From a virus: a DNA stretch of 31,505 nucleotides. This document shows, one piece after another, positions 1 through 31,505 of this stretch. Numbering within the stretch: position 1 is the stretch's first letter; each line of letters opens with the position of its first letter. The position numbers were made by a program, and so were the translations under genes. The DNA is taken from positions 1 through 31,505 of the IMG/VR virus record IMGVR_UViG_3300025141_000463. One strand, 5' to 3'. The notes under the pieces were generated by a model. That model worked only from the letters and a program-made list of their open reading frames with translations, was not told where the DNA came from and made no database searches.

Positions 1-85
1 ATTTTATTCTAATTTGATGTTATACTAGAGATAATGGCCGGGGGCGTCCTACTACGGTGGGAATTGGTGGGCAGGGAGTTGCTTT
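1..85. repeat. Terminal direct repeat, left copy
   Basis: Bases 7-85 are identical to 31427-31505, and bases 1-5 also match 31421-31425; the single mismatch is base 6 (a here, t at 31426). The repeat sits exactly at both contig ends, which most simply means the assembly of a circular or terminally redundant molecule overlaps itself. The repeat holds the -10 element and the start of a GC-rich structured stretch. A clean k-mer closure should not contain a mismatch, so a genuine short terminal repeat or an end-of-contig error are both possible. Confidence 0.9.
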
Positions 86-5960: not shown

Positions 5961-7514
5961 ATGCCTTTAGGAGCATTTAGATTAAACAGTCTTGCTAAAC
6001 TTCAATCAGCAGGCGCAGTAGATTATACCTGGGACGACATTTATTATTTGGATGAAACTGACTGGGAAACAGTAGAACAAGACAGTGGAACAGCGGCTTG
6101 CGGAATTCATATATCAGAAGATGATGGCACTAAGATGTATCTTCTGCATACAAATGATAAGATATATCAGTATACACTTTCAACAGCCTACGACGTTAGC
6201 TCAGCCTCTTATGCTTCTAAGACAATAGACTTGTCCAGCGAAAGCGACATGAAAACAGATATGTGGATGAGTGACGACGGTGTTAAACTTTTCCTTTGTG
6301 GAAGAACTTTAGACACAGTTCGTTCATACACAATGAGCACACCCTGGGATATTTCAACTGTAAGTTATGACAGTAAAAGTTTAGACGTTAGTGCTAAAGA
6401 AACAGCCCCAAGGGGAATATTTGTTGGCGACGACGGTGCAGAACTTTATGTTGTTGGCACACAAAATGCAGACATCCATCAGTATACAATGTCTTCAGCA
6501 TATGATTTAGCGACTGCTAGTTTTACAGCAACTAAAGATACAAGTGGTGAAGCATTAGGACAAGGAAACGCAATTCAATTTAATAGAAATGGCGAAGTTT
6601 GTATTATGTGTGACGCTGATGAATCTAAATGGCAAGAATATAATTTAAGCACACCTTGGGATATTTCAACAGCGTCAGCAGGGTCTGTTAGGAAGAGAAC
6701 TTATGAAGGTATTCCAACAGGAATGTATATTACTCCAGACGGGAAAAATGCTTATGGATCAACAAGTCCTGACTACGCATATGATCGCATTTCACAATAT
6801 AAATTAACTACAGGTATTACAATGGCGGCAGATTCTTTTAGCTCAGACTTAAAATTAGCTGTTCCTTATGCTTACAAACTGTCAGGGTTTTCAGATGTTG
6901 CACCTCGTAGACACGCAGGTTTAACAACAAACAATAATTGGTATGGTGGAAGTCCTAAGAGTCGTGCTACAATGGTAGCGGCAGGGACAGCAGTTAAATT
7001 CGCTGACTATGGTGGATGTGGAAAATTTGATCAGTCAGGTTCTCTTATAGCGAGTTACCATGCTACAAAGTATCCAGTAACATTTCCAACTTGTGCATCT
7101 GGCACTAATAGTTATTGTGTTGAATTTTGGATCAAAGCCACTGACGCAACTTCTAATAATAACTGGCACCTTAGTTCAGGCGACAGCGGAGGACGTTGGT
7201 TGTTTGGATTTAATACTGGTTCAACTATAAGTTTTGGTGGCGAAAATAATATTGGTATAGGAACTTCATGGACTCATATTGCTATTGTTTTACACAATGG
7301 CACGAAGTATTTCTACAAAGATGGCGTTAACCAAGGAGCATGGTATTCTGGTAATACAGGATTTACAGATCTTCACGTTGGAGCTTTCACGGCATCAGCA
7401 GGTGCAAACTTTAGAGGGTATATGCAAGACTTAAGAGTTTATGTTGGCACTCATAAGTATCCAAGTGGCACTACATTTACACCGCCAACCCAAATGGTAT
7501 CAAGTTTTTCATAA
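5961..7514 (+). CDS. Beta-propeller plus LamG-like receptor-binding protein
   Basis: 517 residues. Residues about 25-285 hold roughly five repeats of 40-50 residues with the pattern 'YTLSTAYDVSSASY' then 'DDGVKLFLCG' then 'VRSYTMSTPWD', the look of a beta-propeller with one blade per repeat. From about 385 onward is a LamG/concanavalin-type jelly roll (VEFWIKA, WTHIAIVLHNGTKYFYKDG, YMQDLRVYVGTHKY). Both folds bind surface glycans or proteins, so a receptor-binding role is likely. It lies between fibre genes with a good ribosome site (AAGGAG). Confidence 0.7.
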   Translation: MPLGAFRLNSLAKLQSAGAVDYTWDDIYYLDETDWETVEQDSGTAACGIHISEDDGTKMYLLHTNDKIYQYTLSTAYDVSSASYASKTIDLSSESDMKTDMWMSDDGVKLFLCGRTLDTVRSYTMSTPWDISTVSYDSKSLDVSAKETAPRGIFVGDDGAELYVVGTQNADIHQYTMSSAYDLATASFTATKDTSGEALGQGNAIQFNRNGEVCIMCDADESKWQEYNLSTPWDISTASAGSVRKRTYEGIPTGMYITPDGKNAYGSTSPDYAYDRISQYKLTTGITMAADSFSSDLKLAVPYAYKLSGFSDVAPRRHAGLTTNNNWYGGSPKSRATMVAAGTAVKFADYGGCGKFDQSGSLIASYHATKYPVTFPTCASGTNSYCVEFWIKATDATSNNNWHLSSGDSGGRWLFGFNTGSTISFGGENNIGIGTSWTHIAIVLHNGTKYFYKDGVNQGAWYSGNTGFTDLHVGAFTASAGANFRGYMQDLRVYVGTHKYPSGTTFTPPTQMVSSFS

Positions 7515-13732: not shown

Positions 13733-13819
13733 ATGCCTAAAGGAAAAGGAACATACGGAACTAAGAAGGGCCGTCCACCAGTAAAGAAGAAAAAGAAAAA
13801 AGGTTATAAGAAGAAGTAG
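13733..13819 (+). CDS. Lysine-rich micro-protein (MPKGKGTYG type)
   Basis: 28 residues, MPKGKGTYGTKKGRPP followed by a run of lysines. I recognise this pattern as a recurrent tiny protein of marine phages, often near capsid genes. It is strongly basic and may bind DNA. Its TAG overlaps the GTG start of the asparagine synthetase. Confidence 0.6.
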   Translation: MPKGKGTYGTKKGRPPVKKKKKKGYKKK

Positions 13820-15549
13820 TGTGTGGAATAGTAGGAATTACTTCTAATGACGACACCTTTGTATCTGAATATCTAAAAATAATAAAACATAGAGGACCAG
13901 ATGGACAAGGTATCTGGAGTGATGGACAGATTACCTTAGGTCATAATCTATTAGCAATTACAGATAAACCCCATTTATCTAAACAACCATATATTACCCC
14001 CAAAGAAAATATTTTAATTTATAATGGAGAAATCTTTAACTATTATGAATTATTAAAAAAATATTCTAATTTTATTCCTAAAACAGATTGTGATACTGAA
14101 TTGCTGGCTTGGGGCCTTGACAATTTAGGTATTGCTTTCTTAAATGAAATAGACTCGATGCATTCACTTGCATACTATGATAAAGAATATAAAAAATTAT
14201 ATTTGTCAATAGACCATGCAGGAATAAAACCTTTATACTATGCACAAATAAAAGAAGGGTTAGTGTTTGGCAGTGAAGTAAAAGGATTAATAGATAAAGT
14301 TCCTAATAGTAATAAAATAGATCCAATGGCAATGTCTTGTTTTTCTTTGTCAGGATTAAATGTAACTAGTCATTCTTTCTTTAGTGGAATTAAAAAAGTA
14401 ATGTCTGGAGAAACATTATGTTATAATTTACACCATAACACATTAAAACAAGTAAAAAGAATTCTTCCACGAGCAACATCAGATTATAAATTTGATCCTT
14501 TTGAATTTAGACACATGATGAATAAAACTGTAAAAATGTGTAGTATAGGAAAAAGAGAAATAGGTGTATTTTTATCTGGGGGCTTAGACTCAAGTGCAAT
14601 AGCATACGAACTAAACAAAATTAAAGGCTCTGCAAGAACATTTACAAACATGATTCATCCAATGCCTAAAATAACTCATGAGGATTTTAATAGTGATCAT
14701 GATTGTGCATTAGAGTTAGCATTAAGAGACAAGTTTAATCATGAAGTAATAAAAATAACTCCTGACATTTACGTTAATAACTGGGACAATGCAGTTTATT
14801 ATATGGAAGAGCCTGTATATAATCTAAGTTTGCCAATGTATAATTACACAAATAAATTTTTATCTGAAAAGGGTATTGTAGTAACTATGGCTGGTGATTT
14901 AGGTGACGAAGTATTAGGAGGATATCCCAAATACTATAAACTAGGAAAACAATTTGGCAATGCTAAACAAGACTGGAGACAAATAGTTAAACAATGGATG
15001 TTTAGATTAAGTGCTCCTTTAAAACTTCCTAAGATGGAATATTCATATGATGATGTTATAGATGAATTAATAAAAACAACATTTCCTGAAAGTTTGCAAG
15101 TAGAAACGGATAATGTTGCTTCATATATGATGTTAGATATTGTTGGACAATGTCCTGAAGAATTTTTTAGAAGAAATGATCGTTATGGTATGCAATATTC
15201 TATGGAAGGGCGATTTCCTCTAGCAACAAAAATGTTTATTAACTATGCTATGTCTATTCATACTAAAGATAAAATAGGTGCAACTGAAGCCGATACAAAA
15301 CTATTACCTAAGATTGCTTATAAAGGATTACTAACAGATAATATTATTAATAAGAAAAAAACAGGATGGACTGCTCCTATTAGAGAATGGCAACAACAAA
15401 ATTTAGATAACAATGTCTTTGAAACAATGTATGAAAACAATTTAAAATTAACAGAACATAAAATTGAAGGCTTAAGACGTCATAACAAAGGAAAAACTCC
15501 TGCCCTAGCTTGTAATGATTGGGCAAGACAATATCAAATGACTTTATAG
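13819..15549 (+). CDS. asnB: Asparagine synthetase (glutamine-hydrolysing)
   Basis: 576 residues, full length. The GTG start is fixed by the essential Cys2 (MCGIVGI), the glutaminase nucleophile exposed after Met removal. Glutaminase motifs: HRGPDG (24-29), YNGEIFN (68-74) and the TDCDTE segment (89-94). Synthetase motifs: the pyrophosphate loop SGGLDSS (253-259) and GDLGDEVLGGY (359-369). It should make asparagine, or amidate another carboxylate, from glutamine and ATP. It lies between portal and scaffold genes as a cargo gene, without its own promoter motif. In phage genomes such enzymes often accompany surface-glycan genes, so the true substrate may be a sugar acid; that is inference. Confidence 0.9.
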   Translation: MCGIVGITSNDDTFVSEYLKIIKHRGPDGQGIWSDGQITLGHNLLAITDKPHLSKQPYITPKENILIYNGEIFNYYELLKKYSNFIPKTDCDTELLAWGLDNLGIAFLNEIDSMHSLAYYDKEYKKLYLSIDHAGIKPLYYAQIKEGLVFGSEVKGLIDKVPNSNKIDPMAMSCFSLSGLNVTSHSFFSGIKKVMSGETLCYNLHHNTLKQVKRILPRATSDYKFDPFEFRHMMNKTVKMCSIGKREIGVFLSGGLDSSAIAYELNKIKGSARTFTNMIHPMPKITHEDFNSDHDCALELALRDKFNHEVIKITPDIYVNNWDNAVYYMEEPVYNLSLPMYNYTNKFLSEKGIVVTMAGDLGDEVLGGYPKYYKLGKQFGNAKQDWRQIVKQWMFRLSAPLKLPKMEYSYDDVIDELIKTTFPESLQVETDNVASYMMLDIVGQCPEEFFRRNDRYGMQYSMEGRFPLATKMFINYAMSIHTKDKIGATEADTKLLPKIAYKGLLTDNIINKKKTGWTAPIREWQQQNLDNNVFETMYENNLKLTEHKIEGLRRHNKGKTPALACNDWARQYQMTL

Positions 15550-29040: not shown

Positions 29041-29048
29041 TATAAATA
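29041..29048 (+). promoter_or_regulatory. T4-type late promoter
   Basis: Exact TATAAATA, 18 bases before the ATG at 29067, one base after the end of a 9-base inverted repeat. No -35 box (the region 17 bases upstream is ATCCCC). Confidence 0.65.
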
Positions 29049-29066
29049 CTAACATAGGCAAATATT

Positions 29067-29267
29067 ATGACAATTACTCAAAAACAATACGAACAAAATT
29101 ACGAACAACTTCAAAGGCATAGAAAGCATGAGAAGGATCTTAAAGAATGGGCAAAAGACTTTCCATTTGATCCTCTTAAGCAGAAAATTACAGGCAAAGA
29201 CTGGCGCAAATATAAACAGGCACGCAAAAAGGCATCAGACCAGTTGAAGTCTTTAAATTCAGTTTAA
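29067..29267 (+). CDS. Small charged protein with its own late promoter
   Basis: 66 residues, highly charged and helical (QNYEQLQRHRKHEKDLKEWA, then KDWRKYKQARKKASDQLKSL), net basic. No family recognised. It is the only gene in an otherwise non-coding 800-base stretch and has a dedicated TATAAATA, which argues that it is real. The ribosome site is weak (ATAGGC). Confidence 0.55.
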   Translation: MTITQKQYEQNYEQLQRHRKHEKDLKEWAKDFPFDPLKQKITGKDWRKYKQARKKASDQLKSLNSV

Positions 29268-29660
29268 AACGCAGGTTGTAATACGTCGGCTAATGACCCT
29301 GCTTTAATGTATAATGCTTAACAGTTATACATTGTATAGTGCCGCTAATTTCCTAATTTATTAGGTTGGAAGTTTTAATACATACGTCTTCCATAAAATT
29401 CTGTTAAGTCGTTTGGATATAAAGCCAAGCGAGACGGCTATAGTAGTGAGATACTTTTTGATGTTGATGGTTCATCTTTTTGTGTCAGAAACTACTATAG
29501 CCGTCGTATGAATTCATTGCCAAGCTAATTTAAGAACTTCTATATAAAAGAAAATAAATGTGTTTGAGCGATAGCGAAAACAAGATGTCTGTTAAGACAT
29601 CTACTAATAAGCCGTTAATAATGCAATAATGCCTTGTTTAACCCCTTATAGAAGGGATTA
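29268..29660 (+). other. Array of perfect hairpins (possible origin or structured RNA)
   Basis: No credible gene. Perfect stem-loops: ATGTATAA/TTATACAT (29307-29314 with 29325-29332), CCTAAT/ATTAGG (29352-29357 with 29360-29365), TGGAAG/CTTCCA (29367-29372 with 29388-29393), a 15-base arm GACGGCTATAGTAGT with its complement (29433-29447 with 29491-29505), AGATGTCT/AGACATCT (29583-29590 with 29595-29602), and CCCTT/AAGGG (29643-29647 with 29652-29656). Stem density is far above other gaps. Confidence 0.65.
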
Positions 29661-31417: not shown

Positions 31418-31446
31418 TTGATTTTTTTCTAATTTGATGTTATACT
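31418..31446 (+). promoter_or_regulatory. Sigma70-type promoter reading into the structured region
   Basis: A -35 box TTGATT (31418-31423), a 17-base spacer and a -10 box TATACT (31441-31446) make a good sigma70 promoter, so host RNA polymerase could use it without phage factors. Transcription would start near the end of the contig and run into bases 31-232, where no convincing gene lies on this strand. It is one of only two good sigma70 promoters seen; nearly all other promoter-like sites are NATAAATA. Confidence 0.6.
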
Positions 31447-31505
31447 AGAGATAATGGCCGGGGGCGTCCTACTACGGTGGGAATTGGTGGGCAGGGAGTT
31501 GCTTT
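31421..31505. repeat. Terminal direct repeat, right copy
   Basis: Second copy of the 85-base terminal repeat (84 of 85 identical to bases 1-85). Only here is the upstream flank with the -35 promoter element visible, because the left copy is cut by the contig start. On a closed circle the two copies would collapse to one, giving a genome of about 31,420 bp. Confidence 0.9.

Follow-up and report, generated by a model that had tools for sequence, protein, structure and literature searches.

A conserved pseudoknotted RNA next to a small basic protein gene in aquatic phages and integrative elements of freshwater betaproteobacteria

What does a gene-free stretch crowded with perfect hairpins contribute to a virus genome? 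The question is raised by a virus record of 31,505 bases, analysed here in full and referred to as the window, for which a preliminary description had proposed that the hairpins near the right end belong to an origin of replication recognised by a helper, a processed RNA or an mRNA-stability region. We find that the hairpins are parts of one conserved structured RNA, located at approximately 29269-29602 on the plus strand and about 335 nt long in the window, the ends being inferred from conservation.

An 85-base repeat is present at both ends of the window (1-85 and 31421-31505, one mismatch), indicating that the window is probably a whole genome. The terminase large subunit shares 66% identity with that of the lake phage DSL-LC06 and about 50% with those of several Pelagibacter phages, and a portal and J-like tail proteins are encoded as well. 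Neither the terminase nor the tail genes resemble those of T4, so that the genome, as judged from its sequence, is not T4-like and the comparison with T4-like origins suggested earlier is inapplicable. The late promoters thought to lie on both sides of the gap find no support either: TATAAATA occurs four times in the window against 4.07 expected by chance, and without such enrichment a T4-like late region was rejected. A second repeat pair, of 33 bases, lies near the left end (119-151 and 198-230). In addition, TATAAATACTA is found at 1189-1199 and 29041-29051, 25-35 bases ahead of two gene starts; the 8-mer within it is not enriched, and the longer common form may be a phage promoter.

Folding and covariation of the gene-free stretch

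The gap is indeed the largest without a gene: no open reading frame of at least 50 aa was present between 29268 and 29805, stops occur in all six frames, and the stretch conceals no conserved reading frame. ARAGORN detected no tRNA or tmRNA genes in the window. Folding was stronger than in shuffled controls (z -4.85 on the plus and -5.65 on the minus strand; 0 of 100 shuffles equally good). The 15-base perfect arm pair described previously was recovered at 29433-29447 and 29491-29505, and a stem as long as 15 bp appeared in none of 500 dinucleotide shuffles. The reported number of at least six perfect stem-loops holds for short arms only; with arms of at least 7 and loops of at most 60 bases there are three (15, 9 and 8 bp). 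This number was reached in 94 of 500 shuffles, and the number of bases contained in arms is rare (7 of 500). The unremarkable stem number, taken alone, would suit chance folds in AT-rich DNA, a reading that is refuted by compensated changes over 51 sequences (below) and to which we assign next to no weight.

The first relatives were sought with one arm as a pattern, followed by BLAST, which led to L011, a diverged relative with 71% identity over 413 bases; most contigs matching the single-arm pattern (L002-L008, L010 and L012) were not relatives. L015 and L022 were reached by further patterns and by means of the protein of 66 amino acids encoded upstream. The loop of the first hairpin, used as a pattern, identified 13 bacterial contigs, nearly all of them labelled as freshwater betaproteobacteria, and these copies align along the RNA. 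A covariance model, R1, covers the first 143 bases, that is the 5' half of the RNA. Its match in the window, at 29269-29411, reaches 125.8 bits (E 1.7e-24), the window being among the sequences from which the model was built, and the E values of its matches overall range from 1e-9 to 1e-31. The family is recognised by P1-P4 together with PK1, and the window has the R1 match, a perfect PK1 and a small basic gene directly upstream. The features in the window are as follows.

29067..29267, plus strand: gene for a 66-aa basic protein, predicted to be helical, directly upstream of the RNA and ending the base before the first conserved position
29269..29602, plus strand: whole structured RNA, as given by the R1 match and by alignments with L011, L015 and L022 that reach the P9 hairpin
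29271-29275 with 29298-29302, plus strand: P1 (helix 1), double changes in 6/6 pairs, 97.4% of cells paired in 51 sequences
29283..29292, plus strand: segment of the P1 loop, ACGUCGGCUA, that can form PK2 with the base of the P6 3' arm (29499-29508 approximately)
29306-29314 with 29325-29333, plus strand: P2b hairpin; helices 2-4 have double changes in all pairs
29317..29324, plus strand: 5' side of PK1, CUUAACAG in the P2 loop, perfect complement of 29401-29408
29352-29356 with 29361-29365, plus strand: P3, double changes in 4/4 pairs, 81.4% paired
29367-29372 with 29388-29393, plus strand: P4 with conserved loop UUUUAAUACAUACGU, 96.4% of cells paired, double changes in 4/6 pairs
29401..29408, plus strand: 3' side of PK1, CUGUUAAG, the strand behind P4; its own partner beats shuffled partners
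29409-29416 with 29425-29432, plus strand: P5
29433-29447 with 29491-29505, plus strand: P6, 15 bp
29562..29581, plus strand: P8, GUUU-GA-GCGAUAGC-GAA-AAC, kept in phage copies
29583-29590 with 29595-29602, plus strand: P9 terminal hairpin, at the same place with a different sequence in L011

Covariation was assessed in 51 distinct sequences over the 27 pairs of helices P1, P2a, P2b, P3 and P4. Across these pairs 90.9% of cells were paired and double-sided changes were observed in 25 of the 27, with a covariation score of 0.774 compared with 0.220 after shuffling and 0.06-0.13 with partners slid. The alignment was fitted to the model and hence leans towards structure; because of the slid controls and 93 further pair types, the structure is nevertheless beyond real doubt. 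The stems therefore change with compensation among relatives, in agreement with the covariation test that the preliminary description had named. Within P1-P4, 64 G-U pairs were counted against 14 A-C mismatches, an excess which argues that it is the transcript of the plus strand that folds. The P1 loop (UUGUAAUACGUCGGCUAAUGAC; about 22 nt, nearly invariant) is the best-conserved part of the family, and P2a, an outer stem that is strong in the bacterial copies, is weak in that of the window. In P6 of L015 a U-A pair has become A-U by a double change, L022 has AAUCAAU/AUUGAUU as the outer stem of P8 instead, and bacterial copies carry a hairpin of the GCGAAC..GUUCGC type, usually one per copy, at a distance of 280-420 nt from where the RNA begins.

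PK1, which joins the P2 loop to the strand behind P4, lies outside the model, and its sequence varies widely among copies. When partners were redealt among copies, none of 2000 and none of 5000 shuffles, which ignore kinship, was as good as the copies' own partners; P5 and P6 each gave 0 of 5000 in the same kinship-blind test. Pairing of the P5 5' strand with a CCAAGC repeat after P6 was discarded, being no better than shuffled (2499 of 5000). The second pseudoknot, PK2, would connect the nearly invariant CGGCUA of the P1 loop with UAGCCG at the base of the P6 3' arm. Nine of its ten pairs can form in the window and all ten in most copies; shuffles, again ignoring kinship, did as well in 2 of 2000 and 0 of 5000 cases. 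PK2 covaries in L125 and is broken by two pairs in L048, where P6 is kept. It excludes the lower part of P6, and the P6 base covaries more strongly than PK2. On these sequence patterns, PK2 may be an alternative or switched pairing to the base of P6, and a switch is possible.

Phages, integrative elements and the upstream small gene

Among bacterial genomes, R1 matches were found in 31 of 186 Polynucleobacter species genomes, in 8 of 90 genomes of the genus Limnohabitans, and in 6 of 187 Methylophilaceae and 6 of 399 Burkholderiales genomes; the class-wide sample gave a match in its own centre genome only. Such patchy occurrence in Polynucleobacter, Limnohabitans and Methylophilaceae is as expected of mobile DNA. 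Two last pattern scans added 14 viral contigs with an R1 match (E 1e-11 to 1e-19), some of them near-duplicates. Homologues are present in about a dozen distinct phage contigs besides the window. One of the 14, the IMG/VR contig L124, carries the integrative element, its RNA being followed by a 190-aa-type recombinase gene, and is not evidently a phage. No similar DNA was found in INPHARED phages or PLSDB plasmids, and R1 did not match DSL-LC06 or four Pelagibacter phages. DSL-LC06 (L016) has a strongly folded non-coding region at 570-1300 (z -6.4; none of 20 shuffles did as well), close to where the window RNA lies on the genome map; it matches neither R1 nor Rfam and is perhaps another unknown RNA.

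L011, L015 and L022 encode the 66-aa protein at 59-65% identity, and in these relatives the stop codon of its gene falls within the first 13 nt of the RNA; AlphaFold2 predicts two helices (pLDDT 77). Nearly all copies examined have a small gene on the same strand whose end lies from 78 nt upstream to 25 nt downstream of the RNA start. The distance is at most about 20 nt in every phage copy examined and as a rule no more than 80 nt in the elements; the exceptions to this arrangement are L043, with a different, longer gene there, and L048, which is unreadable. The small proteins of the elements comprise about 100 aa and are predicted by AlphaFold2 to be all-helical (pLDDT 88). Profile comparison by hhalign of these with the small proteins of seven phage contigs gave 96.7% (E 3.3e-10), and at profile level the phage and element proteins are homologous. 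The group of the window (A12) gave 2.2% and 0.2% against A11 and A14, the W-K-G helical proteins of other phages and elements; the 66-aa protein shares place, charge and helical character with the other small proteins, has no significant profile match to them and is a possible member of their family. A tblastn search of INPHARED with the small phage proteins found none, a fold search of the PDB found no relatives of the bacterial small protein, and its comparison with Pfam and PADLOC gave none that was convincing.

The constant position of the small gene is also what a long cis-acting 3' UTR would produce, one that controls stability or translation of the small-gene mRNA by autoregulation and has no separate role in trans. 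In all phage copies the RNA starts at or beside the stop codon and always on the same strand, the very layout expected of a 3' UTR. However, with PK1 and its long P1 loop the structure is larger and more constrained than usual stability hairpins, and the RNA stays conserved although the protein has diverged to low identity. We consider this main rival unlikely, but it is the form in which the mRNA-stability region proposed previously stays alive, a plain stability element fitting less well.

Most bacterial copies reside in an integrative element with a DUF6641 gene and a 190-aa tyrosine recombinase, often with a longer recombinase too; no paper on DUF6641 was found in the literature searched, and R1 did not match an Azospirillum plasmid with the same recombinases and DUF6641. 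The recombinase gene is usually located 0.6-2 kb downstream of the RNA, with variable cargo between, and in phages, too, variable genes follow the RNA. In L011 the RNA is followed directly by a gene (736-2292) that resembles, by eye, a glutamine-dependent asparagine synthetase. The homologue of this gene (44%) is encoded far off in the window, at 13819-15549, showing that the cargo behind the RNA changes between relatives. The variable genes behind the RNA and the nearby recombinase would fit a folded attC-type recombination site for the 190-aa enzyme, with cargo just downstream. Against this, the P9 end hairpin usually occurs once per element and is not repeated at the borders of the cargo, the surroundings of the first phage copies yielded no relative of the recombinase, and the G-U excess points to RNA, so that an attC-like site is in our view highly improbable.

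Other features were observed around the elements. The motif GGGTATAG..AAATCACC, conserved behind the RNA, was rejected as a cassette site; it is present in some elements only. About a dozen elements have a motif resembling GGGTATAGRNNNAAAATCACCA downstream of the RNA (316 nt after the RNA start in L044, 390 in L053, 385 in L085 and 716 in L047, where an inserted gene has shifted it by about 400 bases). A group I intron match (54.5 bits) lies in the Polynucleobacter genome of L043 at 5991-6219 on the minus strand, about 1.3 kb from the RNA.

Genome G949 contains a row of three integrative elements, each about 7 kb long, next to porin-like genes (L114 and L115; G949:C7:96000-135500). The middle element has neither the small gene nor the RNA and both neighbours carry both, a joint absence which argues that small gene and RNA are one module. 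The repeats at the element borders include an apparent porin signal-peptide coding sequence, and a porin gene may be the insertion target.

Sharing between elements and phages might also be accounted for by a replication origin, or a transcription-primed origin, perhaps common to a phage and a satellite-like element. Local GC skew in the window falls to about zero at 28.5-31 kb, and none of the window proteins searched was recognisable as a DNA polymerase or primase. However, covariation accompanied by a G-U excess and a pseudoknot would be expected if an RNA, not a DNA site, were conserved; the stretch showed no iterons, and an origin would not need the constant attachment of the small gene. 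No positive evidence emerged for the helper-recognised origin, which does not predict these RNA features, and we regard an origin of either kind as very improbable.

A proposed protein-plus-RNA module and its possible role

The conservation is of the RNA type, the spread in mobile DNA is patchy, and the link to a gene for a small basic protein is fixed. A protein-plus-RNA module explains this combination best; an origin, an attC-like site and a plain stability element are poorer fits. With a probability of about 0.62, we propose that 29269-29602 is a pseudoknotted non-coding RNA that forms a co-transcribed module with the small helical basic protein and acts as an RNA or ribonucleoprotein. Of the functions proposed at the outset, which are borne out in part, the processed RNA comes nearest, given the compensated stems and the lack of a hidden frame.

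In the proposed mechanism, the small gene and the RNA would be transferred together, as a single module, between aquatic phages and the small integrative elements found in freshwater betaproteobacteria. They are likely to be co-transcribed from the plus strand, whereupon the RNA would fold around its P1/P2/PK1 core and act in trans, either by itself or in a ribonucleoprotein with the upstream protein; that this protein binds the RNA has about an even chance. The module is probably an RNA-based tool of mobile DNA, and would serve it in competition against the host or other mobile DNA, although a role in conflict or takeover, suggested by the nature of the carriers, is put forward tentatively. 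Rather doubtful, too, is the bolder proposal that the small helical protein and the RNA, whose base could switch between P6 and PK2, make up a mobile-DNA ribonucleoprotein of a new class, shared by phages and satellite-like elements and used by them against each other or against the host.

Few large conserved RNAs lack a known family, and this one, accompanied by a small protein, moves between the genomes of phages and the integrative elements that abundant freshwater bacteria carry. The pairing of protein and RNA makes function testable, with two separable parts and cultured Polynucleobacter or Limnohabitans, and the natural variation in structure suffices to guide the design of matched stem mutants.

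Comparison with known RNAs and systems

At curated cut-offs, Rfam 15 gave no match to the RNA in the window, the 13 bacterial or 10 further viral loci; its only matches there, outside the RNA, were tRNAs and one group I intron, and nothing credible appeared at E values up to 5. No description of such an RNA was found in a literature search that had most subscription journals outside its reach.

GOLLD and ROOL are associated with phages and prophages. Both are large, ornate structured non-coding RNAs whose biological function is unknown (PMC12286853). The window RNA resembles them in being large, structured, non-coding and phage-associated, but differs in that neither the window nor the phage or bacterial copies match Rfam, in its shorter length (about 335 nt) and in the small protein gene at its 5' side. 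Freshwater Burkholderiales are also the source of the Polynucleobacter-1 RNA and other Burkholderiales motifs (PMC2864571, PMC8632094). Polynucleobacter-1 is RF01718 in Rfam, which the window RNA and its copies do not match; icd-II and carA lie upstream of their genes and HRC-28-1 beside rpiA, whereas the window RNA lies downstream of its small gene.

Two further systems combine a structured RNA with a small protein. OLE RNA has a small partner protein, OapA, and is in this respect like the window module, but there is no relation in Rfam and the hosts differ. Type III toxin-antitoxin systems of the ToxIN kind, in which the RNA is the antidote to a ribonuclease toxin, like the window module consist of a small protein and a pseudoknotted RNA in mobile DNA; the window RNA, in contrast, lies downstream of its gene and has no repeat array, and its protein has no convincing family match. 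The RNA family and the module have no known parent family; their function, once found, may be of a known kind.
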